Source of the DNA: an uncultured Luminiphilus sp. | GTDB taxonomy: Bacteria; Pseudomonadota; Gammaproteobacteria; Pseudomonadales; Halieaceae | Assembly: GCA_938084055.1 (NCBI GenBank) | Contig: CALKDK010000006.1 | Coordinates: 62,001 to 126,000, forward strand | Length of the DNA stretch: 64,000 nt | Reading direction: 5' to 3' | In this document: positions 6,905 through 32,500 of the stretch, piece after piece | Layout of the letters: every line of letters starts with the position of its first letter | Numbering within the stretch: position 1 is the first letter of the stretch | Made by a program: the position numbers and the translations under genes | The notes under the pieces: generated by a model | The model's database searches: none | Told to the model about the DNA's origin: nothing | What the model saw: the letters and a program-made list of their open reading frames with translations, nothing else

Positions 6905-6960
6905 CCGAGCGGACCCCACGCCTCAGTGCGGAGCCGTGATGCGACTGTATTTCGGGTAGG

Positions 6961-7965: not shown

Positions 7966-7979
7966 GGGAACTCCCGCAC

Positions 7980-8783: not shown

Positions 8784-8785
8784 GG

Positions 8786-11115: not shown

Positions 11116-11126
11116 CACCGCATGGG

Positions 11127-12892: not shown

Positions 12893-12945
12893 CTTTGTCT
12901 CCAAATTTGCGCCTACAGTGATGTGCGAGCACTATGTTTCAGGTT

Positions 12946-14602: not shown

Positions 14603-16669
14603 ATGAAAATGTTCAAGTTTGCTGCATTATTTTTGTTGGCCACGTCCGCGCTACTCGAGGCCAGTTCCCGGGGCGCTCCGCTGTATGAAGAACACTGTGC
14701 CGGCTGTCACAGCGCTACCCTGCGCGGCTCAGCACACGGTGCAGCACTCTCTGGAACAGCTTTCCTGGATCGCTGGCAGCACCGCAATGCCCGGGAGCTG
14801 CTCAGCCTGAGCATGGAGAGCATGCCGCCCGGTCAAGCGCATACCCTGTCGACTGAAACCCATGCAGCAATCACCGACTATATCGTCCGCTACAGCGCAG
14901 CAGCGCTCGCTGGCAGTGAACTGCTGGCCAGCGCTGACACGCTGTTGGCTGATACTACAAAGTCAGAACCCGAGGCCGTGGAATTTTCCGGTGCCGACAG
15001 CGTCATGGACATGGCCCGTAATGCGGGAGGGTTCAACAACCGCGTCGTCGAAAACTTTTCTGACGTCAGCAACCATGACATTAACAGCCCCCCCGATAGC
15101 GACTGGCTGAGTTGGCGGCGAACCACCACCGGCCATGGCCACAGCCCTTTACAACTGATTGACCGTTCCAACGTCCGTCAACTGGGGCTGAGCTGGTCTA
15201 TCGCCATGCATGGGGGCAGTAACCAGGGCACGCCCCTGGTGCGTGATGGGGTTCTATTCCTGACCCACGCCAATAACAAAATCCAGGCCCTTGATGCCGC
15301 CACCGGCGACCTGATTTGGGATTACCAGTACGATTTTCCCAGTGGCGCCAAACTCCTGGGTGGCCCCACCCGAAATATTGCAATCCATGGACATCGCTTG
15401 TTCCTGACGACCTACGATGCCGCCATAGTGGCCATCGATGCCCGCTCAGGTGTTGAGCTTTGGCGCTCTGAAAAAGCCGACTACCGTGAAGCGTTTACCC
15501 ACAGCGCGGGGCCCATTATGGCGGATGGTGTGGTGGTCAGCGGTATCAACGGCTGTGAGCTTTTTACCCAGGCCGGCTGCTTCATCACGGGGCATGACCC
15601 CAAAACTGGGGAAGAATTATGGCGAACCTCAACCCTCGCACTGCCCGGCACGCCCGAGTTCGCTACCTGGGGTGATATCCAGCCGGATCGTCGCGGTGGG
15701 GGGGATACCTGGATTTCTGGCTCCTACGACCCAGATCTGAAGCTGGTTATCTTTGGTACATCCCAGCCGAAACCCTGGGCCGCCGTCAGTCGCGGTATGA
15801 CCACTGCAGACGCGGCGCTGTACACCAACTCAACCCTCGCTCTCAGACCCGATACCGGGGAAATCGCCTGGTATTTCCAACATATTCCCGGGGAAACCAT
15901 TGATATGGAGGTGGGCTTCGAACGCATTCTGGCGACCAGCAATGGCCTGCCCGTGGTGCTGACCGTGGGCAAAGACGGCATTTTGTGGAAGCTGGATCGT
16001 CGCAGCGGCGCCTATATCGACCTCCTGGAGACGATGGACCAAACTATTTTCAAGGTGAACCGTACTACCGGGGAACTGACTTACCGGAGCGATATCGTCA
16101 ACGCCGATATCGGTGACACCTTCACCGCCTGCCCCGGCATTTATGGCGGTCATAACTGGCAGTCAGCTGCATTTGATGAGGCGGGCCAGGTGCTCTATCT
16201 GCCCGTACACCAGCTGTGCTCGGATATGACTCCACGAGCCGTTGATTTGGGCCCGGGCGGGGGCGGTTACGGTGCCGATGTGGCCACCTACCCGATGCCG
16301 GGTAAAGCGGGACGGATCGGCAAACTGATGGCTATCGATGTTGTCGGTATGAAGCCCATGTGGGAATTCGAGCAGACGGCCATGTTCCTGACCGGCGCTT
16401 TAACAACCGACGGGGGTTTGCTGTTCATTGGTGACCTGGACCGCGGCTTCAAGGCGTTTGACACCGCCAGCGGTGAACTGCTCTGGTCAACACGTCTGCC
16501 AGCCCCCGCCCATGGCTACCCCATCACCTACGCGGTGGGGGACCGACAGTTTGTCGCTGTACAGACGGGTATCGGTGTCTTCAGGGCGCTGACCGCAGTG
16601 CTGTTCCCGGAGATTTACCAACCCGCGGATGGCCAGGGATTATTCGTGTTTGAACTGGTTGACGGGTAA
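14603..16669 (+). CDS. Cytochrome c-PQQ-dependent dehydrogenase (quinoprotein)
   Basis: A 688-residue secreted quinoprotein. A signal peptide (about 1-22) precedes an N-terminal cytochrome c domain with C32-A-G-C35-H36. A propeller of the methanol/ethanol-dehydrogenase type follows, starting with DWLSWRRTTTGHGHSPL and containing blades such as IQALDAATGDLIWDYQYDFP and FKAFDTASGELLW. Classical quinohaemoproteins carry the haem domain at the C-terminus, so the N-terminal position is notable and shared with the other PQQ gene here. It would oxidise alcohols in the periplasm. It lies 111 bp after the acyl-CoA dehydrogenase on the same strand, so co-transcription is possible. The substrate is not determinable. 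Confidence 0.88.
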   Translation: MKMFKFAALFLLATSALLEASSRGAPLYEEHCAGCHSATLRGSAHGAALSGTAFLDRWQHRNARELLSLSMESMPPGQAHTLSTETHAAITDYIVRYSAAALAGSELLASADTLLADTTKSEPEAVEFSGADSVMDMARNAGGFNNRVVENFSDVSNHDINSPPDSDWLSWRRTTTGHGHSPLQLIDRSNVRQLGLSWSIAMHGGSNQGTPLVRDGVLFLTHANNKIQALDAATGDLIWDYQYDFPSGAKLLGGPTRNIAIHGHRLFLTTYDAAIVAIDARSGVELWRSEKADYREAFTHSAGPIMADGVVVSGINGCELFTQAGCFITGHDPKTGEELWRTSTLALPGTPEFATWGDIQPDRRGGGDTWISGSYDPDLKLVIFGTSQPKPWAAVSRGMTTADAALYTNSTLALRPDTGEIAWYFQHIPGETIDMEVGFERILATSNGLPVVLTVGKDGILWKLDRRSGAYIDLLETMDQTIFKVNRTTGELTYRSDIVNADIGDTFTACPGIYGGHNWQSAAFDEAGQVLYLPVHQLCSDMTPRAVDLGPGGGGYGADVATYPMPGKAGRIGKLMAIDVVGMKPMWEFEQTAMFLTGALTTDGGLLFIGDLDRGFKAFDTASGELLWSTRLPAPAHGYPITYAVGDRQFVAVQTGIGVFRALTAVLFPEIYQPADGQGLFVFELVDG

Positions 16670-19128: not shown

Positions 19129-19965
19129 TCACAAGCCGCTGTTACCGGCCTCGCGCATGATGGGTTGATACTCAGCAAAGTTGGGCGCTCCCGGCTTGGA
19201 ACCGGTGGTCAACCCGGCATCTATCGCGATCGTCTGGCCATTGACATAACCAGATTCCTCGGATGCCAGCCAAAGCACCGCATTGGCCACGTCCTCTGGC
19301 ATACCGGCGCGACCGGGGATGGGTGACTGCTCGGCAAAAACTGGAAGGGCCTGTTCAACCCCATCGGGATCACCCACGGTGGCCGCTGCCGCCAACGGCG
19401 TCGCTATCAGGCCGGGAGCCAGGCAATTGACCCGCACGCCAAAGGCGCACATCTCAGCGGCCAGGTTTTTGGTCAGCCCCACTACGCCGTGTTTGGCCGC
19501 TGCATAGGCATGGGGACCCAGGCCGCCCATGACGCCCGCTGTACTGGACATGCTGACAATGGAACCCCGGCGCGCTCGCTTCATGTGGCCAGAGGCATGC
19601 TTCATGCCATAGAACACGCCGTTGAGCAGGATATCCAGGGTGAACTTCCACTCTTCTGTGGGTGTGGTATCGAGGGGACCGATAGCACCTACAATGCCCG
19701 CATTGTTGAACATCACATCGATTCGGCCGTGGCTGTCCATAGCCGCCTCAACAAGCCCCTTGACCTCCTCCTCCCTGGTCACATCGCAACGCCGTCCAAC
19801 CGCACTGTCTCCCAACTCTTTGACGAAACCGGCGAGGCGATCCTCCTGAATATCACCCAGAACAACTTTGGCGCCATGGGCCACCAGTTTCTGGGCCGTC
19901 GCGGCACCTATACCACTGGCGCCGCCCGTGATGACAGCCACCTGTCCCTCAAGACGTCGTTCCAT
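19129..19965 (-). CDS. SDR family oxidoreductase
   Basis: A 278-residue classical SDR with TGGASGIG near residue 15, FNNAGIVG in the middle and catalytic YAAAK (HAYAAAKHG). The long C-terminus after the usual AIDAGLTTG resembles hydroxysteroid/cyclohexanol-type SDRs. ATG 19965 has GGAG eight bases upstream; a GTG nine bases earlier is less likely because it abuts the Shine-Dalgarno. It is the last gene of a minus-strand run with two NTF2/SnoaL-like genes and a TonB receptor. A role on a polycyclic or hydroxylated ring substrate is plausible, not shown. Confidence 0.9.
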   Translation of the reverse strand: MERRLEGQVAVITGGASGIGAATAQKLVAHGAKVVLGDIQEDRLAGFVKELGDSAVGRRCDVTREEEVKGLVEAAMDSHGRIDVMFNNAGIVGAIGPLDTTPTEEWKFTLDILLNGVFYGMKHASGHMKRARRGSIVSMSSTAGVMGGLGPHAYAAAKHGVVGLTKNLAAEMCAFGVRVNCLAPGLIATPLAAAATVGDPDGVEQALPVFAEQSPIPGRAGMPEDVANAVLWLASEESGYVNGQTIAIDAGLTTGSKPGAPNFAEYQPIMREAGNSGL

Positions 19966-19999
19966 CTGCCCCACTCCTCAGTTATTAAACTATCAGCAG

Positions 20000-20572
20000 C
20001 TACAGCTTCGGTAGCTTGTATACAAAGTCATCGGGGAACCGCTGACCAACGATATCCGGACCCATGCCAGCCATACCCCGCCCTGAGGGTGCCTCGAGGC
20101 GCATCCAGTCGGTCATACCGGTACGGTGAATAATTTTCCAATGACCATCACGCTGTTCGAATTTATCGAGGTAGCGGCCGGCCACGAAAAAATCCATTTC
20201 CGTGTCAAAAGCATCGGGACCTGCGAGAGGATCTTCCACGGCACGCATTTTGTGAAATGCCGTGAAATACGTCTCGACCAGGGCTGTTGTCTCACCAGTG
20301 AACTCCACCAGTGTATTGCCCAACTGGTGATGAGTTCGGGTATAGGTATTCAGGACCATCATGGCAAAACGTACAAAATCTCCGGGGTCCTCCTCGGTGG
20401 CTGGTCGTTCGGGGTCACAGGACGGCCCCTCGTAAAAATGATTGTGGGTCGAGCCAGGGTGAAAGGCAGACTGCAGCAGAGCCTCGTCGAGGCGGTCAAT
20501 GGCCCGGGCATACCGGACCACGACCTCTTGGATCTCCTGTTTCGCCAGTAATTGAGCCAATGCATCGCTCAC
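20000..20572 (-). CDS. SnoaL/NTF2-like domain protein
   Basis: 190 residues with the cone-shaped NTF2/SnoaL fold. A helical N-terminus (LLAKQEIQEVVVRYARAIDRLD) is followed by a strand region with GSTHNHF and THHQLGNTLVEF, then YLDKFEQRDGHWKIIHRTGMTDW near the end. The layout resembles the SnoaL_4-type proteins found in ring-degradation and bile-acid dehydratase families. The start is a GTG at 20572, four bases after the TonB receptor stop, with GGGGGA upstream. An in-frame extension into the receptor gene is not used. A dehydratase or isomerase function is inferred from the family; the catalytic pair cannot be proven here. Confidence 0.82.
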   Translation of the reverse strand: MSDALAQLLAKQEIQEVVVRYARAIDRLDEALLQSAFHPGSTHNHFYEGPSCDPERPATEEDPGDFVRFAMMVLNTYTRTHHQLGNTLVEFTGETTALVETYFTAFHKMRAVEDPLAGPDAFDTEMDFFVAGRYLDKFEQRDGHWKIIHRTGMTDWMRLEAPSGRGMAGMGPDIVGQRFPDDFVYKLPKL

Positions 20573-20576
20573 GGCT

Positions 20577-22805
20577 TTATCCCCCGAAGTTCCAGACAAC
20601 CTCGGCGCCGATGGTACGGGGTGGACGGGTTGCTGCATAGGACCAGAGGCCCGCCACGTCGTAGCCATGGGTATAGCCATCTTCATCGGAGAGGTTGCGA
20701 CCAAAGAGGCTCAGACGCAGGTCATTGATCTCCCAGTTCAGCGAGGCATCAAGCAAATGCTGGCCGTCGTTCTCAAGTTCTGGCGCATTGGTGACGTTGA
20801 CAAAGTGCTCGCCCAGATAGTGATAGGCGCCCCGTGCCCAAACACGCCCATTGGCCATGGGCCACTCATAGGTGGCGTCGATGGTGCCCGTAATATCGGG
20901 TGCCCTCCGGAACTCCAGGTAGCTGAAGTCCACCTCCTGTCCGGTCTGCAGATCGGTATAACCAAAACTATCGTACTCGGTATCGAGGTAGCCAATGTTG
21001 GCGCGCAGGGTCAGACCCTCGCCAAGAACAGCCTGGGCCTCGAGTTCGACACCCCAGATCTCCGCTTCCGACGCGTTGGTTACAACCGTCTTTTGCCCCG
21101 TACCCGTATCTGAGGGCAGCTGCAGCTCTTCCTGCTTGTCGTCGTACATCATGTAGAACACAGCGCCGTTAAAGCGCAGTCGGTTATCAGGACTCTGGTG
21201 CTTGAAACCGATCTCGAAGTTGTTCACGGTTTCAGGATCGTAGGGTTGGGTGGCCTCCTCCGGAGAATTCACGCGACCATTGAAACCTCCCGAACGATAG
21301 CCCGAGGAATAGGTAACGTAGGTCATCAGACTTTCACTGAGTTCATAACGCAGGCTGGCACGCGGTGTGAACTCGCTCCAGGATTCCTCCGCCATGGCAT
21401 TCACGTTGCCTGTTTGTTCCGTACTCTTTTCATCCCGCGTGTAGCGACCTCCAAAATTGAGGGTCATGGCATCCGTCAGACGCCAGTCAATATCGGCAAA
21501 GACCGCCTGGGATTCACTCTCTTGCCGGGACTTCTGCAGAATATCAAGGACCAGACCCGGCACTACGAAACCGACCCAGGAGCGCAGCGGGATCTCATAT
21601 TCAGAATCCCAAAGATAGGCGCCGACCACCGCGTTGATCGCACCGCCGTTATCCCAGCCCAGGCGCAGCTCATGGGACGTTTGCTCGTAGGTCGCCGGCC
21701 GTGTCGTGCCATAAAGAAAATCAGGCGTACCATCCCAGTTGGAAATGATGGTTTCATCGGTCTCATAACTACCAAAGATGTAGTCCACACTGATGGCGTC
21801 AGTGGCCTGCCAGCGGGCTTCAATAATGTGGGTATCGGCATCAAAGGTCGCGGCCATCTCGGCTTCAGTGGCCTGATCGGGGGTTGAGAAAGCAATAATC
21901 TGGCCCCCCGGATCCGGCGGCGCATAGCCCACGTTGGCGGTTTTACGACGATCTCCGGTAATGGTGGAGTCAAGGCTGGGCGAGCAATAGCCATAAGCGC
22001 TACAGAACACATGACGCTGCTGTCCGGTATTTAGCAGGGGCGGCGTGTCCTGATCGGTTTCCTCAAACTGACCGGTGTATTCGAGTTCGAGGTTATCAGT
22101 GGGCGTCCAGAGGATGTTGGCGCCAAACGCCTGATAATCGTTGCGCCCCACATCACGGCCGATTGCATCATTCTGGTAGTAGCCCTCGCCCTGATCGCGT
22201 TTCGCACCGGTGAGCTTGACACCCACATTCTCGCCGAGACCAAAATTTAAGATACCGTCCATGTAATAGGTATCGTATTCCTCATAGCCAGCACGAATTT
22301 TACCCCCCAATTCACCAGTGGGCTGGGTCCTCGTGATGTTGATAATCCCGCCGATGGTATTACGACCAAACAGGGTTCCCTGCGGACCGCGCAGAACCTC
22401 CATGCTGGCGAGGTCAATACTACGCAGCAGGCTGCCCGCATTGGCGCCGATAAACATGCCATCAACCACCACCCCCACCGCTGGATCAAAGTTCTTTTCG
22501 ACATCGGCAACACCAACGCCACGGATGAAGATGGCCGCAACACCGCCCGGGCCCTGTGCCGTGTCATCAATAACGATATTGGGTGATATGTTCGCCAGAT
22601 CGGTGATATCGCGGGCAAATTGCCCCTCTATCTCTGACTGGGTCAACGCACTCACCGAGAATCCGACGTCCTGAAGGTTTTCGGTTCGTTTGCGCGCGGT
22701 AACCACCACCTCTTCGAGGGCCAAATCCTGCGCGTGGACTGCCACATTGGCTGTTGCGGTCACGATGCCCGCGAGTACGGCTACTGCCAGGGGGTGCTTT
22801 TTCAT
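20577..22805 (-). CDS. TonB-dependent outer-membrane receptor
   Basis: 742 residues. A signal peptide (about 1-25, ending VHAQ) is followed by the TonB box region EEVVVTARKR, a plug domain with IFIRGVGV and MEVLRGPQGTLFGRNTIGG, and a 22-strand barrel in the remaining ~550 residues. The plug motifs match receptors for hydrophobic or organic substrates rather than clear siderophore types. It lies between two SnoaL-like genes in one operon, which argues that it imports the substrate those enzymes act on. The start is ATG 22805, and ~135 bp of upstream DNA separates it from the first SnoaL-like gene, so an internal promoter is possible. Confidence 0.93.
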   Translation of the reverse strand: MKKHPLAVAVLAGIVTATANVAVHAQDLALEEVVVTARKRTENLQDVGFSVSALTQSEIEGQFARDITDLANISPNIVIDDTAQGPGGVAAIFIRGVGVADVEKNFDPAVGVVVDGMFIGANAGSLLRSIDLASMEVLRGPQGTLFGRNTIGGIINITRTQPTGELGGKIRAGYEEYDTYYMDGILNFGLGENVGVKLTGAKRDQGEGYYQNDAIGRDVGRNDYQAFGANILWTPTDNLELEYTGQFEETDQDTPPLLNTGQQRHVFCSAYGYCSPSLDSTITGDRRKTANVGYAPPDPGGQIIAFSTPDQATEAEMAATFDADTHIIEARWQATDAISVDYIFGSYETDETIISNWDGTPDFLYGTTRPATYEQTSHELRLGWDNGGAINAVVGAYLWDSEYEIPLRSWVGFVVPGLVLDILQKSRQESESQAVFADIDWRLTDAMTLNFGGRYTRDEKSTEQTGNVNAMAEESWSEFTPRASLRYELSESLMTYVTYSSGYRSGGFNGRVNSPEEATQPYDPETVNNFEIGFKHQSPDNRLRFNGAVFYMMYDDKQEELQLPSDTGTGQKTVVTNASEAEIWGVELEAQAVLGEGLTLRANIGYLDTEYDSFGYTDLQTGQEVDFSYLEFRRAPDITGTIDATYEWPMANGRVWARGAYHYLGEHFVNVTNAPELENDGQHLLDASLNWEINDLRLSLFGRNLSDEDGYTHGYDVAGLWSYAATRPPRTIGAEVVWNFGG

Positions 22806-22940: not shown

Positions 22941-23411
22941 TCACTGGGCGATCGGCTTGCTCAGTTCTGTATTTTCGAAGCTGTTGAAGTAATGGATAAC
23001 AACATCCCGCTGCTTGATTTTCCAAACCCCGGACCGACGCTCAACGCGATCGGTATAGGTTGCGCCGACAAAAGTTGCCTTGGCGCTGTCAGCCAGTACG
23101 CCGGTGCAATCCACATCACAACAGGCGACTGCGGTATTGGCATCCACAAAATCCACAAGATGATTGGAGGTAATGTGCTGACTCATGCCCCAGGCCGGCC
23201 AGAGCACATCATGCAGGGCGGTGAGGATCCCCGCATGGCCCTCGAAACTGCCAAAGGGTGGGCCAATCGCCCAGACACAGTCCTCCCACCAGATAGACAG
23301 GAAACGGGCTTCATCGCGTTTGTCAAAACCGTGGCAGTAACACGAGGCCAGGTCCTCGATGGCCTGTCGACTCTCTATCCGGTCGAGCCGTGACGGAAGC
23401 TCATCGATCAT
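22941..23411 (-). CDS. SnoaL/NTF2-like domain protein
   Basis: 156 residues, NTF2 fold of the SnoaL_4 type. The N-terminal helix SRQAIEDLASCYCHGFDKRDE and the FLSIWWEDCVWAIGPPFG strand are typical. A central HITSNHLVDF contains a histidine pair often placed at the pocket, and DRVERRSGVWKIKQRDVVIHYF closes the fold. ATG 23411 has GGGAG five bases upstream; two earlier starts are weaker. This is the first gene of the SnoaL-TonB-SnoaL-SDR run. Copy C of the 20-bp motif lies about 70 bp upstream. Related proteins act as dehydratases or isomerases on steroid-like or polyketide rings; the substrate is not known. Confidence 0.82.
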   Translation of the reverse strand: MIDELPSRLDRIESRQAIEDLASCYCHGFDKRDEARFLSIWWEDCVWAIGPPFGSFEGHAGILTALHDVLWPAWGMSQHITSNHLVDFVDANTAVACCDVDCTGVLADSAKATFVGATYTDRVERRSGVWKIKQRDVVIHYFNSFENTELSKPIAQ

Positions 23412-23461
23412 TGCTGCTCCCATTGTTAACCTATACCGATGCACCGATGGAAGATTAAACC

Positions 23462-23537: not shown

Positions 23538-25931
23538 CTAAAGGACTTTTTGTGTGGCTCTCGGCCGCGCCATGGACTGTTCAATGGGCAGCAAATGCAC
23601 GTCACCCTCAACGCGCCTGAGGGCTGCCTCTATCGACACATCGCCGTAGGTGGTGGAGCGTTGCCGGTGGGGTCGATTCAGAGCGGCGATGGCAGCCTCC
23701 ATGTCATCGGGCGCCCAGCACTGCCCGTGAGCTGCGCCGGCGGCCCTAGATATACTCTCATTCATCAAACAGCCACCCAAATCGTTGACACCGACACCCA
23801 GCGTGCGAAGCGCCTCATCCTGTCCCAGTTTGGTCCAGGACGCCTGGATATTGGGAATTACATCACCCAACACAATGCGCGCAATGGCGTGCATGCCGCG
23901 ACACTCCTCGCGCGTGGGGCCCGGCCGGGACAGGCCACGACGATAGAGTGGCGCCTCACGAGCCACGAAGGGCAAAGGTACAAACTCGGTGATGCCCCCG
24001 GTCATTTCCTGCAGCCCCCGTACGGCCAGCAGGTGGGTAGCCCAGTGTGGCGGCAAATCGATGTGGCCAAACATGATGGTTGCTGTGGAGCGCAGCCCTG
24101 CGCGGTGGGCGGCGGCCAGCGTGTCCAGCCACTGCCGGGTACTCAGCTTGTCGGGACAAATTTTTTCTCGAATCCGATCATCCAGAATTTCTGCTGCTGT
24201 GCCCGGCACCGTGTCGAGGCCAGCATCCACCAGACTCTGCAGGTAATCATCGAGACCGAGGCCAAGTGAATCGGCACCGTGGTGAAGTTCAAGAGGCGAA
24301 AAAGCGTGGATGTGTAACTGGGGCACCGCCCGCTTCACCGAGGCGACAATACCGCGATAGGTGTGGCCATCATATTCTGGGTGAATACCACCCTGAAGGC
24401 ATACCTCGGTCGCGCCCAGTTGCCACGCCTCCAGGGCGCGCCGCTGCAACTCTTCGCTACTGATGTCGTAGGGGCGTTCACGGCCCTCAGACTTGGGCAG
24501 GCCCTTGGAGAATGCGCAGAACGCACATTTGTACAGACAGACATTGGTGTAATTGATATTACGATTGACCACGTAGGTTACGGTGTCGCCAACTTGCTGC
24601 GCGCGGAGTTGGTCTGCACATTGGTAAACCGCCTCACGATCAATATCCACCGTTGCAAACAAGCGCGTAATGTCGCTGTGCCCGATGCTCTCACCGCACA
24701 GGCGGCGCCGTAGAATTTTTGTAATTTCCCCGTCCTGCTTGAGCAGGACTGGCGCCTGTAACGGAGCCGCCGCGGTTACCGCCTCGCCCGGACGCCAGGC
24801 GTCCTGCCGCAATTGCCCCGCAGCATCTGACTGCTCGAGACATCGGGTATACATAGCCTCATCCAACCAACCCGCCTGCTGAATGTAACGGGAGTAAACC
24901 GGCAGTCGGGGACGAAGGACCTTGCCGGCTTCTGCAGAAATCTTCTCCAGTCGCTGGATTGCAGGCCACGGGGCCTCGGGGTTGACGTGATCCGGTGTGA
25001 CGGGAGACACCCCTCCCCAGTCATTGAGCCCTGCGTTAGCGAGCCGATGTAGGTCGTCGGGCGACAGGTTTGGCGGCGCCTGAATGCTGATATCGGATGG
25101 AAGCAACAGGCGGGCCGCAGCAATCGTCCACAGCAGCTCGTCAAGGGGGGCATCGGGCACGTGCGCCATCCGGGTCCCGGGCTTGGCACAGAAGTTCTGG
25201 ATAATGACCTCCTGAATGTGCCCATAGTGTGCGTGCAGCCTTGCAATGAGTTGCAGGTCAGCGAGGCGCTGGGCGCGATCCTCGCCGATACCCACCAGGA
25301 GGCCCGTCGTGGAGGGAATGCCGAGACGGCCTGCCCGGGCGAGGGTCGCCAGTCGACGCCAGGGTGTTTTATCCGGAGAGCCAAAATGAGGCCCGTCCCG
25401 CCCAAGAAGGGCTGTAGCGCCTGACTCGAGCATCAAGCCAAAGGAAGCCATGACCGGCCGAAGCCGCTGCAACTCACCGCGGGTGAGATTTCCCGCATTA
25501 ACGTGGGGAACCAGACTGGTCTCACGAACGATGGCATCACAGGCAGCCACGACGTAGTCAACGGTCGTTGCATAACCCCGTTCACTGAGCCAGTCACGGG
25601 CAACGCGGTAGCGTAACTCGGGCTTCTCTCCCAGCGTGAGCAACGCCTCGCTGCAGCCCGCGCCCTCCCCGTTGCGAGCCACGTCGACGACTTCATCCAG
25701 CGTCATGAAGGGCGCTGAAAGACGACTGGGCACCTGGGCAAAAGTACAGTAGTGACAGACATCCCGGCACAGCTGAGTGAGTGGAATGAAGACTTTTGGG
25801 CTATAGGTCAGGGTCCGTCCAAAGTGCTCGTCACGCACCCATCTCGCCTGTTCCAGAAGCGCAGGCAAGTCCTCCGTGGCGGACAACAGAAGCTCCCCAA
25901 CCAGCGTCTCCTTGCAACCAATTCCAGCCAT
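23538..25931 (-). CDS. fbiC: FO synthase, fused CofG/CofH radical SAM enzyme
   Basis: A 797-residue bifunctional enzyme that makes 7,8-didemethyl-8-hydroxy-5-deazariboflavin (FO), the chromophore of coenzyme F420, from 5-amino-6-ribitylaminouracil and tyrosine. Two radical SAM domains are visible: the CofG half with C55xxxC59xxC62 (CRDVCHYCTF) and the CofH half with C465xxxC469xxC472 (CLYKCAFCAF). In archaea these are separate proteins, and the fused form is the bacterial (FbiC) type, with the usual order CofG then CofH. Full family length with no breaks. Its ATG overlaps the cofC stop by one base, so it is the last gene of a coupled operon npdG-cofE-cofD-cofC-fbiC. Confidence 0.96.
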   Translation of the reverse strand: MAGIGCKETLVGELLLSATEDLPALLEQARWVRDEHFGRTLTYSPKVFIPLTQLCRDVCHYCTFAQVPSRLSAPFMTLDEVVDVARNGEGAGCSEALLTLGEKPELRYRVARDWLSERGYATTVDYVVAACDAIVRETSLVPHVNAGNLTRGELQRLRPVMASFGLMLESGATALLGRDGPHFGSPDKTPWRRLATLARAGRLGIPSTTGLLVGIGEDRAQRLADLQLIARLHAHYGHIQEVIIQNFCAKPGTRMAHVPDAPLDELLWTIAAARLLLPSDISIQAPPNLSPDDLHRLANAGLNDWGGVSPVTPDHVNPEAPWPAIQRLEKISAEAGKVLRPRLPVYSRYIQQAGWLDEAMYTRCLEQSDAAGQLRQDAWRPGEAVTAAAPLQAPVLLKQDGEITKILRRRLCGESIGHSDITRLFATVDIDREAVYQCADQLRAQQVGDTVTYVVNRNINYTNVCLYKCAFCAFSKGLPKSEGRERPYDISSEELQRRALEAWQLGATEVCLQGGIHPEYDGHTYRGIVASVKRAVPQLHIHAFSPLELHHGADSLGLGLDDYLQSLVDAGLDTVPGTAAEILDDRIREKICPDKLSTRQWLDTLAAAHRAGLRSTATIMFGHIDLPPHWATHLLAVRGLQEMTGGITEFVPLPFVAREAPLYRRGLSRPGPTREECRGMHAIARIVLGDVIPNIQASWTKLGQDEALRTLGVGVNDLGGCLMNESISRAAGAAHGQCWAPDDMEAAIAALNRPHRQRSTTYGDVSIEAALRRVEGDVHLLPIEQSMARPRATQKVL

Positions 25932-26632
25932 CAGCGCACCAACCCCTGGCTTACTCGCCCTGCAGTTTTTTCAGCTACCAGCAGCCCTCGATCCCGTGCG
26001 GACTCCAGCCACTCGCGGGTTGCGGGCCCAACCTTCAAACCCGATTGATTACCCCAGAGCAGATCGAAGAGGTCATCCGGTGTATCGATATCCCAGGCCA
26101 GGCCTGCGCAGTCCACGGCCACTGGGCTCATTCCCCCAGCGCTGAACGCCTGCTGGTGTCGTTGACAGCTATCGACGCCAAAGACAAATGCAGGAGGAGA
26201 GCCCGCGTTGAAAGCAAGGGCATTGGTGCCCCGCCGTCGTCGGTCAGGACAGACAACGCCCGAACCCGACCCCAGAGCCGCCCCAACGGCCTCCAGATCT
26301 GCCACCGACAGGCAGGGCAGATCTGCGAACAGCACCAATTGCCGGGGTGCCCGGAGCCACTCCACACCCCGATGCAGCAATTCATTCAGGGTGCCTGCGA
26401 GCAGTGCCCCCTCGCTAACCAGCTTGAGTCGCGCTGAGGCGGGCATCACCGGTGGCCATTCTTTTCCCTGCAACACCACAACAGACCCGCAGTCTGGCCA
26501 GTTCATCAGTGTGGCCAGCACATCCCTGGCCATTGCCACCGCGAGGTCCTGGCGTTGTGCCGAGGTTAAAACAGCTGCCAGGCGGCTCTTGGCCAGCGGC
26601 AGCGATTTCAGTGGCAACAGGACATCAAACAT
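25931..26632 (-). CDS. cofC: Phospholactate/PEP guanylyltransferase of F420 synthesis
   Basis: A 233-residue nucleotidyltransferase of the CofC/FbiD family. The N-terminus LLPLKSLPLAKSRL contains the nucleotide-binding KxxxxAKSRL pattern, FADLPCL is the metal/substrate strand, and WDIDTPDDL lies near the C-terminus. It makes the GDP/GPPG-activated three-carbon acid that CofD transfers to FO. Known homologues use 2-phospho-L-lactate, phosphoenolpyruvate or 3-phospho-D-glycerate; the sequence alone does not tell which. ATG 26632 overlaps the cofD stop by eight bases; a GTG three codons earlier is the alternative. Its presence with all other pathway genes supports a working pathway. Confidence 0.9.
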   Translation of the reverse strand: MFDVLLPLKSLPLAKSRLAAVLTSAQRQDLAVAMARDVLATLMNWPDCGSVVVLQGKEWPPVMPASARLKLVSEGALLAGTLNELLHRGVEWLRAPRQLVLFADLPCLSVADLEAVGAALGSGSGVVCPDRRRRGTNALAFNAGSPPAFVFGVDSCQRHQQAFSAGGMSPVAVDCAGLAWDIDTPDDLFDLLWGNQSGLKVGPATREWLESARDRGLLVAEKTAGRVSQGLVR

Positions 26633-27587
26633 CAACGACACACTCAGCGAGAACCTGCCGAACCAGTGCTGTTTTTTCAGCAGCTCCGGTCATCACGGTG
26701 TCGCCTATCAGGACACGATCGCCCTGAGCACGCAGTTGCTCTGCAAATGCGGCATCACGCTGATCAAACACCCACAAATCGATAAAGCTCGGATACATGG
26801 TTTTCATTTCTTCGACCCACGAACCCACGGTCGGCTCAAGGTTTTTTTCCCTCATTATTTTGGCGAGCGGACCCTTGATGGCCTCACCATTGACAATAGG
26901 TGACACCGCCACGACCGTGTCGGCCTTTGCAAGTGCATCAACGATACTAGGAATTGCCAGTATCGGAGCTATACTTAAGTAGGGGTTGGAAGGCCCCAGA
27001 ATGACACAGTCACACCCCTCCCCCAGAAACGACAGCAACTGACTGTTCGGAAGCGCCTGTTCCGCGCCACGGTACTCGAGTTTTTCGATCCGCGGTGCGC
27101 AGCCCCTCGCCACAAAATAATCCTGAAATTCCATGACGCCGTCTGCGGTGTGGACAAACGTGCGTACCGGCTGGTCTGACGCCGGAATGATACGCATAGC
27201 CCGAATTCCCAGGGCGACCGCCAGGTCCGAAGTCACTTCCGTGAGTGTTTTGCCCCCAGAGAGCCCTGCGTGACGCAGCAGGTGCAGTGCAATATCCCGA
27301 TCACCGAGGCTGAACCATGTCGGTCCATGCAGGCGCTCGATCTCAGCAAGAACCGACCAGGTCTCATCACGACGTCCCCACCCACGCTTCGGATCGATGG
27401 CGTCAGCCACGGCATACAACACACTGTCAGTATCAGGACATACCCACAGGCCGAGGTGCTCAAAGTCGTCACCGGGATTGGTCACCACCAGCGGGTTGAC
27501 CGCTCCGCTTAACCCATACAAACCCCGCGCCATCCGGGCGCCACCCCCCCCACCAGCCAGCAGGACGACTCTGGGGATCCCACTCAT
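26625..27587 (-). CDS. cofD: 2-phospho-L-lactate (or PEP) transferase, F420-0 synthesis
   Basis: A 320-residue CofD/FbiA-family enzyme. The N-terminal glycine-rich segment LAGGGGGARMARGL (about 10-23) and NPGDDF (37-42, usual form NTGDD) bind GDP and FO. LGDRDIALHLLR and ILGPSNPYLSIAPIL are conserved family segments. It transfers the activated three-carbon moiety to FO, giving F420-0 or dehydro-F420-0. The ATG overlaps the cofE stop as ATGA. Length and motifs are complete. Note P instead of T in NPGDD; the meaning of this change is unknown. Confidence 0.95.
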   Translation of the reverse strand: MSGIPRVVLLAGGGGGARMARGLYGLSGAVNPLVVTNPGDDFEHLGLWVCPDTDSVLYAVADAIDPKRGWGRRDETWSVLAEIERLHGPTWFSLGDRDIALHLLRHAGLSGGKTLTEVTSDLAVALGIRAMRIIPASDQPVRTFVHTADGVMEFQDYFVARGCAPRIEKLEYRGAEQALPNSQLLSFLGEGCDCVILGPSNPYLSIAPILAIPSIVDALAKADTVVAVSPIVNGEAIKGPLAKIMREKNLEPTVGSWVEEMKTMYPSFIDLWVFDQRDAAFAEQLRAQGDRVLIGDTVMTGAAEKTALVRQVLAECVVDV

Positions 27588-28354
27588 CGAAACATATCCG
27601 TGGCCTGGGACCGCAACAGCGCCGTCGCCGAACCCGTAGACGCGGAGGAAACGGGGCAGCCCCGCACCCAGACTACCGGCCTCCCCTCTGCCGCTTCACC
27701 CTGCACCAGTGCCGCCGCAGCGGCGATACCATCCGCTGTCGCAGGCTCAGTAACCCTAAGCTCATTGCCGTACAGGTCTGCCTGTCCAACCTGGTTCCAG
27801 AGCGCCGCAAAACCGTACAAGCCTATGGCATGGCCAACAGTGCCCATGCGCCAAGCCCGTCCGATGCTGTCATTGATCACGACCGGCACCCTGAATCCGT
27901 AAGTTTCTGAGATCCGGTCCGACAACTCGCGGGCGCTGGCATCAGGATCTTTGGGCCACAGGAGAACGCTGCCTCCCCCGCCGCCCTGGTCAATATTCGA
28001 CGCATCGATACCGGCATTGGCCAAGACATGCCCCGTTCGGTGCTCCACAATAATCAAGCCGGGCCGCGAGCGCAGGACACCCCGCGACTCCGATAGAATC
28101 AATTCCACCAGCCGCGGGTCCTTACCGGTCTCGCCAGCAACTGCGTTGGCGCGCAAACTCGGCTCAACCTCGTCGAGATTGACGTACCGATCCTCTGATT
28201 TGGACACAATTTTTTGGGCTACGACCAGGGTATCCCCCGACCTGGGGACAATACCCTGGCGACCAGAGGCAGACGCTATCATGGCCACCAGATCATCACC
28301 GGGAGCAATGAGGGGCAGCCCTTCCAGAGCCGTCAGGGCTATCTCAGCCGACAC
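27584..28354 (-). CDS. cofE: F420-0:gamma-L-glutamate ligase
   Basis: About 256 residues of the CofE family, which adds glutamates to F420-0 with GTP. Recognisable parts are LIAPGDDL, GDTLVVAQKIVSKSEDR, the glycine-rich DASNIDQGGGGGSVLLWPKDPD, and VVINDSIGRAWRMGTVGHAIG with metal-binding aspartate. The protein is only the ligase: the nitroreductase-like domain fused in actinobacterial FbiB is absent, so reduction of dehydro-F420 would need another enzyme if that route is used. I pick GTG 28354 because GAGG lies six bases upstream; a TTG at 28369 overlapping the npdG stop is the alternative. Confidence 0.93.
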   Translation of the reverse strand: MSAEIALTALEGLPLIAPGDDLVAMIASASGRQGIVPRSGDTLVVAQKIVSKSEDRYVNLDEVEPSLRANAVAGETGKDPRLVELILSESRGVLRSRPGLIIVEHRTGHVLANAGIDASNIDQGGGGGSVLLWPKDPDASARELSDRISETYGFRVPVVINDSIGRAWRMGTVGHAIGLYGFAALWNQVGQADLYGNELRVTEPATADGIAAAAALVQGEAAEGRPVVWVRGCPVSSASTGSATALLRSQATDMFR

Positions 28355-28361
28355 AATCGCC

Positions 28362-29036
28362 TCAGTCAATGCCGGTCAGGCGAATGCCCGCATGGGTCTT
28401 GTATTGTTTATTTATGTTGATGAGGATCGAGGTCAGAGCTTCAGCAGCCGCGGCGTTGTTGATCATTCCCGCATGGAATCCACGGACGTCAATGACACTG
28501 AGAATATCGATCACCGTCTGACGCGCTTCCCTGCTGTTGCCTGTGACCAGTACATCGCAGTCAATCGGACCATCACCGTTGAGGTGTGCCGCAGCAACGT
28601 TCTGCAAGGCACTGACCACTTGGACGCTATCGCCAAGCACAGCCTGGGCGATCTGCCCGGCGCTGCCACCCTCAGGCAATTGCACCCGGGCGACTTTTGG
28701 CGGCACCAGCGGGACGGTGACATCCACCACCACTTTGCCCACAACAGCGTCTGCGATCCCCTCGAGAGTTGCTGCATGCGCGGAAAATGGAACTGTCACA
28801 AAAACAATGTCAGCGGCCGTTGCCGCATCCTGATTGCTGGCACCTGAGACCTTTAATGCGCCCCATTGGCTCTCGGTCCCCAGAACTTTCAGTGCATCAG
28901 CAGCAGCCTGGGCCTGGGCCTCATGGCGAGAACCGATGACCACACCGAATCCGGCCCGAGACAATCTGCGAGCCAGCCCGGCACCCAGATCACCGGTACC
29001 ACCCACTATGCCCACCGTCACTGCTCCTGTATCCAC
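28362..29036 (-). CDS. npdG: F420-dependent NADP oxidoreductase
   Basis: A 224-residue Rossmann protein of the F420H2:NADP oxidoreductase (Fno/NpdG) family. GIVGGTGDLGAGLARRL is at residues 9-25, and GSRHEA after the second strand is typical of NADP specificity. VFVTVPFSAH and QNVAAAHLN follow in family order. It would move hydride between NADPH and F420, supplying F420H2. The start is GTG 29036 with GAGGA eight bases upstream. It is the first gene of the F420 operon. The promoter region faces the Baeyer-Villiger gene and holds motif copy D. Confidence 0.92.
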   Translation of the reverse strand: MDTGAVTVGIVGGTGDLGAGLARRLSRAGFGVVIGSRHEAQAQAAADALKVLGTESQWGALKVSGASNQDAATAADIVFVTVPFSAHAATLEGIADAVVGKVVVDVTVPLVPPKVARVQLPEGGSAGQIAQAVLGDSVQVVSALQNVAAAHLNGDGPIDCDVLVTGNSREARQTVIDILSVIDVRGFHAGMINNAAAAEALTSILININKQYKTHAGIRLTGID

Positions 29037-29313: not shown

Positions 29314-30936
29314 ATGCAGGCAACAGAAACCGATTTTGATGCAATCGTTGTGGGTGCGGGCTTTGCAGGGGTCGCGCTCACTCATTACCTGCGCGAGGCC
29401 GGCCTGTCACTGAAGGTCTTTGACCGGGCTCCTGATATCGGCGGGACCTGGGCCTGGAACAAGTATCCAGGCGCAGCGACAGACAGTGAGGGCTACTACT
29501 ACTGCCTCACTTTCTCCAAAGAGGTGCTGCAGGAGTGGACCTGGTCAAAGCGCTATCCGGGGTGGGAGGAAACCCAGAACTACCTGCGCTTCGTTGCCGA
29601 TAAATTCGACATGTGGCCCGATATGCAGTTCAACACTGAAGTCACCAGGGCCGAGTATCAAGCCGACAGCGGTACCTGGGTGGTTACCACCGGCGAGGGT
29701 GAAACACACACCTGTCGTTTTTTCATCAGCGGTATGGGTATGATTTCCCAACCCCAGATTCCCAGTATTCCGGGACAAACAACGTTTAAGGGACCCTGTT
29801 TCCACTCGTCACGTTGGCCGGAGGGGCTCGAGTACGCGGGTAAGCGCGTGGGCATCATCGGGGCCGGTGCCACGACGGTGCAGATGCTACCCGAGGTGGC
29901 CAAAGAAGCGGCCAGTGTGACCGTTTTCCAGCGCACGCCAAATTTTGTCATGCCCGCCATGCAGAAACCGATGACTCCAGAGTGGGAGCGGGACATTAAG
30001 GAAAACTACCAGGCGATCATCGATAAATGCCGCAACCACATGTTCGGCATGGCGTTTAACCCACCATCGGGTCGCACGGTGGCCGAGAGCACACCAGAGG
30101 AAATACAGCAGGTGTTTGAGGAGAACTGGCACGGGAGCTTCCGATGGGTGTTTGAGACCTTCGACGACCTGCTTGCCACACCCGAGGCGAATCAGGCTGC
30201 GGCCGATTTCATTATCGAAAAAATGATTAAGGCCAAAGTGCACGATCCCGAGCTGGCCGACCTGCTAACACCCAGGGGTTATCCTCTGTTTGCCAAACGG
30301 CCACCGCTGGATCATGGCTATTATGAAACCTTCAATCGCGACAACGTGCACCTGGTTGATATCAAAGACCGGGAGCCAATCGTTGAAATTACCGAGACCG
30401 GGATCAGGACCACCGAACACCTCCATGAATTCGACATCATCGTACTGGCTACGGGTTTCAAGGCCTACACCGGGGCGCTGGAGGCAATGGACATTGTGGG
30501 TGAAAACGACCAGATCCTGCGGGACAAATGGCAGGACGAATCAAGCTCGATCATGGGTGTCGCCGTTGCGGGGTATCCCAATTTCTTCATGGTAACGGGG
30601 CCCCAGGCACCCTTCGCCAATTTACCCACCTCAATCGAGCAGAATGCCCAGTGGATCAGTGCGTGTGTCAAGAAGATGCAGGCCGAGGGCAAGGCCATCT
30701 TCTACCCCAGCGCAGCCGCCGAAAGGGAGTGGACCGATCTCACCGCGGAGATTCATGCGCAGACCATGATGGCCCAGGGTGACAAAGTGAACTCATGGAT
30801 GATGGGCGCAAATCGAGAGGATCGCAAAGCCCGTGTTCTTATTTTCTTCGGTGGCGCCCATGTGTATTACGACCGACTGAAGGAGTCATCCGAAAATGGC
30901 TTTCCGGAGCTCGCTTTTTCGGAACACGCCGCCTGA
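29314..30936 (+). CDS. Baeyer-Villiger-type flavin monooxygenase
   Basis: A 540-residue class B flavoprotein monooxygenase. It has an FAD Rossmann motif GAGFAG (14-19), an NADPH Rossmann motif GAGATT (183-188), and between them the Baeyer-Villiger fingerprint F158-x-G160-xxx-H164-xxx-W168 exactly. GGTWAWNKYPG is also family-typical. Such enzymes insert oxygen next to a ketone, giving esters or lactones, in the cytosol with FAD and NADPH. Close relatives act on cyclic and steroid ketones. AGAGGAAAACAAAG precedes the ATG. It is divergent from the F420 operon, and a perfect hairpin overlaps its stop. Confidence 0.93.
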   Translation: MQATETDFDAIVVGAGFAGVALTHYLREAGLSLKVFDRAPDIGGTWAWNKYPGAATDSEGYYYCLTFSKEVLQEWTWSKRYPGWEETQNYLRFVADKFDMWPDMQFNTEVTRAEYQADSGTWVVTTGEGETHTCRFFISGMGMISQPQIPSIPGQTTFKGPCFHSSRWPEGLEYAGKRVGIIGAGATTVQMLPEVAKEAASVTVFQRTPNFVMPAMQKPMTPEWERDIKENYQAIIDKCRNHMFGMAFNPPSGRTVAESTPEEIQQVFEENWHGSFRWVFETFDDLLATPEANQAAADFIIEKMIKAKVHDPELADLLTPRGYPLFAKRPPLDHGYYETFNRDNVHLVDIKDREPIVEITETGIRTTEHLHEFDIIVLATGFKAYTGALEAMDIVGENDQILRDKWQDESSSIMGVAVAGYPNFFMVTGPQAPFANLPTSIEQNAQWISACVKKMQAEGKAIFYPSAAAEREWTDLTAEIHAQTMMAQGDKVNSWMMGANREDRKARVLIFFGGAHVYYDRLKESSENGFPELAFSEHAA

Positions 30937-31075: not shown

Positions 31076-32500
31076 CTACGGGGCTATTCGGTCTTCGCAC
31101 CATGCGCCCAGGGCGACGGCCCTGCCCGCGTAGTGGGGCTGATCGATCATCAGCCGTTCGAGTGTCGTCAGGCGCAAATGATTCCAGCAGCCATCATCGT
31201 GGCAAAGGGTAAAATCGTCGCGCAGCGCCGCACACAAGGCATCCCCCGAGTAACCAAGTGCCCCGAGCCTGTCTGACTGGCGCGTTGCGTAATCCGGACC
31301 GAGCAGCAGGGCGCGCCGGACAATACCCAGGGCGTTGTTGGCCACCCGAGCGGCAAATACCGTGTGACCCGATGCGTCGGCCAGTACATCTGTTCTGTTC
31401 CAGTTCTCCAGCGCCCCAGCCATTTCGGGGTAGGTGATGTCCCCCGCCAGGGGGAGTTCAGGCTCGATCACTGCGGGGGGCACCCCGAGGGTATCCTCAG
31501 CCCGGTCACGCTTTTTACCAAGCGCCAATAAAAGATCGACTTCCACCTCTGAAACACGCCGGCCAATCACTGTACGCTCGACAGAAGGCACCGAGCCATC
31601 GCGATAGGTACTGCCGAGGCGCAGGCAGGTCACACCCCACCACAGAATATTGAAGATCATCCACCATTCGAATGATTCCCTCGGTACGACTTGGCCACTC
31701 GCCCGTTCATAGTCATCCAACCAGGTCGTCAGCGCGGCGAAACCACCTGCCTCCAGGTCGTAGTGTCCAAAGCGCCAGCTCGGAATGCAAAGGAATGAAA
31801 TATCCCTGAGTGGATCACCGATATGCGCCAGTTCCCAGTCCAGCACCGCCGTCAAACCATCGGTGTCAACAAGGAAGTTGCCCATACGAAAATCAGCATG
31901 GACCAGGCGATAGGCCTGGGGTTCGGGGCAATATTGTGACAGCCAGGCAAAGGCCAATTCGAAGACGGCATTGGCCGAGCCAAATTGACGGTAAAAACCT
32001 TCCTGCTCTTCCAGCAGTTCTCTTGGGGATAGCCTGGGCAGCGTTACGGGTAATCCCGCGGTATCGAGGCTGTGGATTCGAGCCAACTCAATCGCACACT
32101 CGGCACTGAGCCGCGCCCGGGCAGGGCCGTACTCAGGCTTGTTGAGCAACCGTGACGGCAGCGCCTCGCCCGCCACACAGGTCATGATAAATCCCTCGCC
32201 CAAGCGACTGTCCGGGGGAAGCTGAGCGATGACCCGGGGTACTTTCAGCCCGACACCATGGAGATGGTCAATGAGCCCAGCCTGCGTCGCCAGAGAAATA
32301 GCACCCACATCGTTGTCATTGGCTGCGGAACTCGCTGACGCCTGAAAGGGGAGCCGACGCAATACGAGGGGTTTGCCATCGAAGCTGAAGCGCCAGCTCT
32401 CCATGCTCGCACCCCCGGAGAGCCGGGTGAGGCCCGTCACTACACCCTCACCCAATGCTGCTCCACAGAGCTGCGTCAATTCGTCGATATGGTCCTGCAT
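31076..32500 (-). CDS. APH-type phosphotransferase fused to a DUF6285-like domain
   Basis: 474 residues in two parts. Residues ~25-330 are an APH-fold kinase with LSGGASMESW, the catalytic LVHADFRMGNFLVD and the metal-binding LDWELAHIGDP. From about residue 360 a helical region (FAARVANNALGIVRR, LGYSGDALCAALR, LRLTTLERLMIDQPHYAG) matches my recollection of DUF6285, which is usually a separate small protein encoded beside such kinases. So this is a natural fusion of neighbours. The kinase half is of the ACAD10/11-like group that handles acyl-CoA or hydroxyacid substrates. The start is ATG 32500. It is convergent with the Baeyer-Villiger gene; no acyl-CoA dehydrogenase is adjacent. Confidence 0.82.
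   Translation of the reverse strand: MQDHIDELTQLCGAALGEGVVTGLTRLSGGASMESWRFSFDGKPLVLRRLPFQASASSAANDNDVGAISLATQAGLIDHLHGVGLKVPRVIAQLPPDSRLGEGFIMTCVAGEALPSRLLNKPEYGPARARLSAECAIELARIHSLDTAGLPVTLPRLSPRELLEEQEGFYRQFGSANAVFELAFAWLSQYCPEPQAYRLVHADFRMGNFLVDTDGLTAVLDWELAHIGDPLRDISFLCIPSWRFGHYDLEAGGFAALTTWLDDYERASGQVVPRESFEWWMIFNILWWGVTCLRLGSTYRDGSVPSVERTVIGRRVSEVEVDLLLALGKKRDRAEDTLGVPPAVIEPELPLAGDITYPEMAGALENWNRTDVLADASGHTVFAARVANNALGIVRRALLLGPDYATRQSDRLGALGYSGDALCAALRDDFTLCHDDGCWNHLRLTTLERLMIDQPHYAGRAVALGAWCEDRIAP

Follow-up and report, generated by a model that had tools for sequence, protein, structure and literature searches.

As stated in the available part of one review (PMC8498797), the Actinobacteria and the Euryarchaeota are the classical makers of coenzyme F420, and by 2021 there was no experimental study of any F420-dependent reductase or F420-reducing dehydrogenase from bacteria other than Actinobacteria. 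Literature searches combining F420 with Halieaceae, or with Pseudomonadales and luciferase-like, returned no report; the table of predicted producers in the same partly available review (PMC8498797) may list gammaproteobacteria. Here, we analyzed a stretch of 64,000 nucleotides, in the following the window, from an uncultured Luminiphilus sp. (contig CALKDK010000006.1, positions 62,001 to 126,000), which carries an operon for F420 biosynthesis at positions 23538 to 29036 and, at 6961 to 7983, a gene for a luciferase-like oxidoreductase (LLM). Taken as a whole, the data led us to propose, with a probability of about 0.68, that the operon is an F420-making unit and an old trait of the host's order, built into an island together with an F420-dependent LLM. 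The host is a Halieaceae genome bin of 2.92 Mb in 79 contigs, 82.75% complete. The family belongs to the Gammaproteobacteria, Cellvibrionales, in the NCBI taxonomy and is placed in the Pseudomonadales by GTDB; in this study, "order" denotes the order as used in our search for relatives, which covered 97 genomes including the host's own, namely, 57 of the genus, 4 others of the family, and 36 of the order, each from a different family. A class-wide sample comprised 370 genomes, again including the host's own, with a requested completeness of at least 90%.

The operon consists of five intact open reading frames (ORFs) in the order npdG-cofE-cofD-cofC-fbiC, running on the minus strand from position 29036 down to 23538, with successive gene-to-gene overlaps of 8, 4, 17, and 1 bases. 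In particular, npdG (28362 to 29036) matches the NADPH-dependent F420 reductase (Fno) family (NCBIfam TIGR01915, 181.5 bits, cut-off 149.8), and cofE (27584 to 28369) encodes a predicted stand-alone F420-0:L-glutamate ligase of 261 aa (TIGR01916, 263.0 bits, cut-off 180.65; PF01996, E 2.5e-72). The product of cofD (26625 to 27587), the putative transferase of phospholactate or phosphoenolpyruvate (PEP) onto 7,8-didemethyl-8-hydroxy-5-deazariboflavin (FO), matches PF01933 (130.1 bits, cut-off 30) and reaches 248.9 bits with TIGR01819, under the cut-off of 257.45; it aligns over nearly its full length to the solved structures of CofD and FbiA (PDB 3c3d, E 1.3e-49; 6uvx, E 2.4e-41). Furthermore, cofC (25931 to 26641) matches the guanylyltransferase family TIGR03552 (119.3 bits, cut-off 105), with alignments to 7p97, 6bwg, and 2i5e, and fbiC (23538 to 25931) encodes a predicted bifunctional FO synthase in which both half-domain models, CofG and CofH, pass (TIGR03550, 472.1 bits, cut-off 213.35; TIGR03551, 514.1 bits, cut-off 374.1), while the whole-length NCBIfam model, at 1006.8 bits, stays 11 under its cut-off of 1018. 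Since the nearest members of the genus conserve an identical gene order, with 80 to 85% identity in NpdG and 71 to 77% in full-length FbiC, chance can be ruled out as the source of the operon, which, judging from its sequence, is real and a gene set of a known and ordinary kind.

A sequence-only reading of this DNA had described a full set of F420 genes on the chromosome of a gammaproteobacterium, which our results bear out, both in the family matches of the five ORFs and in the host being a member of the Halieaceae. The same reading spoke of all five steps of the pathway; all five genes are indeed present and overlapping, but NpdG is assigned to electron transfer between F420 and NADPH and not to a biosynthetic step. 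It was right about the two radical SAM cysteine triads of FbiC (CX3CX2C; C55/C59/C62 and C465/C469/C472), which are invariant in all 16 FbiC sequences aligned, and about the missing FbiB domain of CofE, where the ligase family is the sole Pfam match and no FbiB reductase domain is found with NCBIfam or Pfam; it also asked with good reason how a dehydro-F420 would be reduced. As for the gammaproteobacterial neighbors that it listed, a TonB receptor (46323 to 48563), Slt, and MnmH were confirmed, together with SelD as a further neighbor, and the match of the YciH/SUI1 protein lies just under the cut-offs. We infer from its genes that the operon makes F420: FbiC would form FO, CofC and CofD would attach a phospholactyl-type group, CofE would add glutamates, and NpdG would exchange electrons between NADPH and the finished coenzyme.

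What the sequence-only reading overlooked is an island of genes around the operon. In this genus, the operon sits in a conserved catabolic island that also holds the LLM, which is a new observation. The island comprises, in order, a flavin monooxygenase tentatively labeled as Baeyer-Villiger-like (BVMO), followed by the F420 operon, a SnoaL-like protein (SnoaL2), a TonB receptor, a second SnoaL-like protein (SnoaL1), and a short-chain dehydrogenase (SDR1); it continues with a quinoprotein, an acyl-CoA dehydrogenase (ACAD), a second short-chain dehydrogenase (SDR0), an APH kinase, an acyl-CoA ligase, a regulator-like ORF recognized by eye, a hydrolase, and the LLM. The LLM gene (6961 to 7983, minus strand; PF00296, E 2.4e-53) adjoins that of the alpha/beta hydrolase (7980 to 8981, minus strand; PF00561, E 4.1e-22) in 20/20 genus stretches fetched around LLM matches, and likewise in G015, G039, and G024; LLM pieces at the contig ends of G029 and G051 fall outside the fetched stretches.

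Both the luciferase-like family as a whole and the island LLM follow the F420 genes. The host genome has five PF00296 genes, the one at 6961 to 7983 lying in the window. Within the genus, the median number of such genes, counted as at-least values up to about 20 per genome, is 4.5 in cofE-positive genomes (n = 20) versus 0 in cofE-negative ones (n = 37, among them five that bear fbiC; p 1.2e-7), and in the rest of family and order it is 13.5 (n = 16) versus 0 (n = 24; p 5e-7). An orthologue of the island LLM occurs in 23/25 genus genomes with any cof gene versus 3/32 without, and in these three (G022, G023, and G043) the island contigs stop short of the operon site. In two relatives, G005 (83% complete) and G053 (99% complete, a single contig), the hydrolase and island neighbors are kept and the operon and the LLM are both missing; cofE, FbiC, and NpdG were not found elsewhere in these two genomes. 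In G005, just 295 bases separate BVMO from SnoaL2, and in the BVMO tree this genome groups with the operon carriers (100/100), with G053 outside. Conversely, in two cof-positive genomes from outside the genus, G060 and G063, LLM and hydrolase are neighbors, and the operon is located on a different contig. In G063 the two contigs are large, and operon and LLM each lie more than 150 kb from the nearest contig ends; in G060 the contigs are short, so that a link of about 20 kb or more between operon and LLM is possible, and its BVMO has no adjoining operon. Because two relatives lack both operon and LLM and two genomes beyond the genus retain an LLM far from or unlinked to their operon, we suggest that the LLM would use F420 in the breakdown of a cyclic ketone-like compound, and that it is probably F420 dependent.

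Several observations weigh against this reading and have to be set beside it. ACAD tracks the cof genes almost as well as the LLM does (22/25 cof-positive versus 2/32 cof-negative genus genomes), and BVMO does so too (20/25 versus 2/32); therefore, most of the correlation belongs to the island as a whole, and the part specific to the LLM consists of the two losses. Put in numbers, among the 24 ACAD-positive genomes the LLM is present in 21/22 with cof genes versus 0/2 without, which gives a p value of 0.011 for a signal made of two islands, and, the genomes being kin, p values of this sort overstate the case. One of the two islands, that of G053, is rearranged, with BVMO between the quinoprotein and ACAD and the TonB gene absent from that position; owing to a long branch, the placement of G053 in the BVMO tree is unsure. 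In two genomes with cof genes, G004 and G046, the LLM was not found, the island contig of G004 ending before the place and G046 being 74% complete. Moreover, the LLM passes no cut-off of the F420 LLM families (TIGR03619, 138.2 versus 166.9 bits), and its best relatives among solved structures are alkanal monooxygenases, followed by F420 dehydrogenases and reductases. Alkanal monooxygenases use flavin mononucleotide (FMN). Shorter plasmid matches of the LLM include Rhizobium (6 records) and Sinorhizobium (3), and on the side of the operon, CofD and the whole-length FbiC model fall narrowly below their NCBIfam cut-offs. A single-sequence fold of the LLM was not used (predicted local distance difference test score, pLDDT, of 36), and a scan of viral contigs with the LLM as query gave no match.

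Much of this would also fit an operon that makes F420 next to an LLM that is an FMN-dependent monooxygenase, e.g., a type II Baeyer-Villiger-like enzyme, the two traveling together through a shared island. The alkanal monooxygenases as best structural relatives, the missed F420 cut-offs, and the near-equal tracking by ACAD are what such an arrangement predicts; in similar clusters of Rhodococcus, a flavin reductase accompanies a second LLM, and in the part available of a study on marine SAR202 bacteria, LLMs are interpreted as Baeyer-Villiger enzymes of type II (PMC5395668). Shared travel, however, accounts poorly for G005 and G053, where LLM and operon are both gone and the adjoining hydrolase is retained, and for G063, where the LLM is present with the operon on a different large contig; moreover, no flavin reductase occurs among ten window proteins scanned, a scan that started after position 6960. 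On balance, we consider an FMN-dependent LLM doubtful, albeit far from negligible, and retain the F420-dependent one.

The remaining members of the island fit a catabolic function. BVMO (29314 to 30936, plus strand; PF00743, E 2.4e-22) is the divergent neighbor of the operon, with an orthologue (at least 67% identity) in 22/57 genus genomes; its best NCBIfam match is the pentalenolactone D synthase model, at 250.5 bits, far below the cut-off of 1100, and it is on this match that the Baeyer-Villiger label in the proposed scheme rests. On the other side, fbiC is adjoined by SnoaL2 (22941 to 23444; PF13577, E 1.5e-22), followed by the island TonB-dependent receptor (20577 to 22805), a label read from the sequence itself, with an 81% orthologue in G005, by SnoaL1 (20000 to 20704; PF13577, E 7.6e-19), and by SDR1 (19129 to 19974; PF13561, E 2.4e-62), all on the minus strand. 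The plus strand then carries the quinoprotein alcohol dehydrogenase-like gene with a cytochrome domain (14603 to 16669; PF01011, E 3.7e-56; TIGR03075, 340 bits, under the cut-off of 480) and ACAD (13196 to 14491; PF00441, E 2.1e-29), the latter with an orthologue (at least 81%) in 24/57 genus genomes. SDR0 (12146 to 12904), which clusters with SDR1 by blastp and is conserved in the island, the APH-family phosphotransferase APH1 (11127 to 12233; PF01636, E 1.4e-40), and the AMP-binding acyl-CoA ligase (9481 to 11133; PF00501, E 1.3e-73) are again on the minus strand. Beside BVMO, at 31076 to 32500 of the window, we also noticed an APH-family kinase with a DUF6285 domain, an arrangement found in six loci, the window included.

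It is possible to hypothesize a pathway from these genes, where gene families and co-occurrence lead us to infer which cofactor the LLM uses, what kind of substrate is attacked, and in which sequence the reactions run. The alcohol dehydrogenases of the island would make a ketone, the monooxygenase would turn it into a lactone, and the hydrolase would open the lactone, after which the ligase and the pair of kinase and ACAD would carry the product on through CoA activation and oxidation. APH-type kinases encoded next to acyl-CoA dehydrogenases may have hydroxyacyl-CoA as their substrate. In such a scheme, the LLM could transfer a hydride to or from F420 while working on an alcohol, ketone, or related group, before or after ring opening. 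We put at even odds the more specific proposal that this is an F420-dependent aerobic catabolic pathway of the Halieaceae, in which the operon is kept at the locus to supply the LLM and, where F420 is lost, the LLM is dropped and its island neighbors are retained.

Beyond the window, cofE (PF01996) was detected in 36/97 genomes of the relatives search, i.e., in 20/57 of the genus, in 3/4 other family members, and in 13/36 of the order. FbiC occurs in five further genus genomes with no cofE match (G024, where the contig ends inside NpdG, G029, G038, G040, and G050), so that at least one cof gene is present in 25/57. Across the class, cofE was found in 22/370 genomes, with 4 of the 22 matches below 125 bits and possibly representing related ligases. 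The sequence-only reading had called proteobacterial sets uncommon, which agrees with the class-wide figure but is too strong for the order, given the 13 of 36 genomes outside the family. The arrangement npdG-cofE-cofD-cofC-fbiC was observed in 32 of the 36 fetched loci (with a short fbiC in L046); as to the others, L057 and L075, truncated where their contigs end, otherwise fit, as does L077, in which cofC and fbiC are fused and npdG is lacking at a contig end, and L045 holds npdG-cofE-cofD, with cofC-fbiC on a separate contig. The identical five-gene arrangement is also present in strains named in collections, namely, Seongchinamella unica (L107), Neomelitea salexigens (L106), Zhongshania antarctica (L115), and Litorivivens lipolytica (L113).

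A few of these loci show peculiarities of their own. The CofC-FbiC fusion is encoded by ORFs at L077:3992-6997 and L198:4973-8038, both on the minus strand, in G076 and G077, which belong to different families of the order; profile matches span residues 3 to 198 and 1 to 201 for CofC and 219 to 990 and 235 to 999 for FbiC, respectively. In G077, npdG-cofE-cofD (L045) lies on another contig than the fusion, and in G076, cofE (L077:7992-8734, minus strand), near a contig end, is in two frames with an in-frame stop, as in a broken gene or an assembly error. G057 (L046/L188, L199) has a full fbiC on contig C5 and an operon on C61 with an fbiC match of 349 residues only, and the second fbiC is possibly a duplicated, decaying copy. 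Lastly, in G031 (L053, L054), two contigs bear the operon and encode similar proteins, which could reflect two copies or a mix of strains (4% contamination).

Concerning the origin of the operon, F420 biosynthesis has most likely long been present in the host's order and been retained in patches, rather than being a recent import into this genome, and we favor a single old origin in the order, as far as the trees indicate. In a tree of NpdG, CofE, CofD, and FbiC (54 rows chosen from the loci), the genus stands beside G060 of the Halieaceae with a support of 99. Constraining all 34 order rows to group together was not rejected (approximately unbiased test, p-AU 0.78), with a likelihood 11.6 above that of the free search, and the same held for the genus with four other Halieaceae rows (p-AU 0.82, likelihood above the free search). 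These were quick searches that missed better trees, and neither this tree nor that of FbiC is final; in the four-gene tree, two rows titled Gammaproteobacteria only, L105 and L109, were assigned to the order group from their FbiC position. Weighing against an origin within the order, the tree of FbiC alone (112 rows of at least 700 residues) places the genus in a clade of its own, apart from other order members and on a long stem. We set aside the separate origin that it suggests, the four-gene tree being free of that signal and its constrained versions likelier than the free search. The sequence-only reading, which had regarded such sets as usually transferred, went too far: the four-gene trees can be explained with no recent transfer, an older one is possible, and FbiC alone behaves otherwise. 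The stronger version, an operon newly acquired by the genus from another phylum or class, could draw on the long FbiC stem and on matches of fbiC to 75 plasmid records, including those of alpha- and betaproteobacteria and Rhodococcus; nevertheless, the placement beside G060, the unrejected monophyly of the order, and the same gene order across order members make it decidedly improbable.

With regard to the tail of the coenzyme, Ser162 of the Mycetohabitans CofC, corresponding to Gly163 in FbiD of M. tuberculosis, is critical for the use of 3-phosphoglycerate (3-PG), according to the portion at hand of Hasan et al. 2022 (PMC8764529), which also states that 2-phospholactate and PEP are indistinguishable in CofC assays. 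At this position, three residues before a conserved Ser, the CofC of the window carries the Gly of the 2-phospholactate/PEP type, where Ser or Thr would be expected of a 3PG-F420 producer. The same Gly occupies the switch position in all 35 CofC sequences from the window and the order (34 read by script and L043 by eye). The scripted reading of 92 loci gave 84 Gly, with L160 and L178 not parsed and L043 and L113 misparsed, both being Gly by eye. Apart from these, CofC has Asp in L103, L110, and L112 and Asn in L108, from records titled Pseudomonadales, Proteobacteria, and Gammaproteobacteria, and the substrate of these four may differ. The C-terminal domain of FbiB (TIGR03553) did not exceed its cut-off of 249.55 bits in any of the 97 genomes (best score, 74.8), a test in which a stand-alone FbiE might score below the cut-off, and among the four nitroreductases of the host genome there is no clear match to a dehydro-F420 reductase. 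Because of the Gly in CofC, the lack of an FbiB C-terminal domain over the cut-off, and the lack of a clear nitroreductase match, classical F420 or dehydro-F420 would be expected here rather than 3PG-F420. Two further genes of the host were examined as parts of the pathway and discarded: a second CofD-like gene (G000:C12; L002:1300-3316 together with the nitroreductase gene that follows) encodes a GAK-system CofD-like protein (TIGR04357, 485.4 bits, cut-off 340), and the nitroreductase beside it is nearest to NfnB (E 1e-47), with the FbiB C-terminal domain at 1.7e-10 over partial length.

The want of an evident reductase would also suit a pathway yielding an unusual end product, such as dehydro-F420 or a coenzyme with another tail, and not classical F420. 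Still, CofC lacks the serine diagnostic for 3-PG in the part available of PMC8764529, a 2-phospholactate route would require no reductase at all, and the host genome is only 83% complete, wherefore we regard an unusual product as unlikely.

Should the proposed role of the LLM hold, it would be the first F420 use assigned in a gammaproteobacterium in the literature searched. More than a catalog entry, the locus offers a candidate F420-dependent enzyme, relatives with islands from which that enzyme and the F420 genes are both missing (two such islands), and operon-bearing strains named in collections in which F420 could be measured, and hence a concrete hypothesis, open to testing, on the role of F420 in such bacteria. 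Some marine luciferase-like proteins read as FMN monooxygenases, e.g., those of SAR202 in the part available of PMC5395668, may merit a check for F420.

Among known gene clusters, the nearest to the island is found on plasmids. Eighteen plasmid records match at least 80% of the LLM, of which 9 are from Rhodococcus (best identity, 57%), 3 from Streptomyces, 1 from Mycobacterium, and 5 from haloarchaea, a host range that speaks for an F420-dependent LLM. The Rhodococcus clusters (NZ_CP142144 and NZ_CP058639; L220:13100-27367 and L221:13116-27406) have an LLM 56 to 57% identical to that of the window and share with the island an acyl-CoA ligase, a hydrolase, SDRs, an NTF2-like protein, a phosphotransferase, and an ACAD, partners which are 29 to 52% identical where found. 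Different from the island, they contain further LLM genes, with the flavin reductase beside the second LLM, and a 3,4-dihydroxy-2-butanone 4-phosphate synthase/GTP cyclohydrolase II gene, whose product could contribute to making flavin or F420; no Baeyer-Villiger monooxygenase is annotated in the stretches viewed, where one flavin adenine dinucleotide (FAD)-dependent oxidoreductase is present in L221. An unannotated stretch of these clusters matches a third LLM at 30%.

As for the operon, the mycobacterial FbiA/FbiB/FbiC/FbiD pathway shares with it the fusion of FbiC and the Gly of CofC at the G163 position, but differs in the FbiB reductase domain, which is missing from the window CofE and from the 97 genomes at the cut-off applied. 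The 3PG-F420 pathway of Mycetohabitans likewise has a proteobacterial host and requires no reductase domain, as reported in the accessible part of PMC8764529, whereas the CofC of the window has Gly and not the diagnostic Ser. Similar, too, are other proteobacterial F420 operons, i.e., those of Aromatoleum plasmid 2, a Paraburkholderia sprentiae plasmid, Neopusillimonas, and Rhodospirillaceae, all of which have the five genes, a stand-alone CofE, a fused FbiC, and NpdG nearby. L179 and L181 differ in gene order or strand and show no Halieaceae island in their annotated stretches, the PLSDB tables being incomplete. On the P. sprentiae plasmid (L181:9126-12294), npdG is followed first by a quinoprotein-like gene, next by one for an LLM, and finally by pqqA/pqqB, a further instance of F420, LLM, and quinoprotein genes lying together. 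In Neopusillimonas (L134) and Rhodospirillaceae (L121), the gene order is the same as in the operon of the window.

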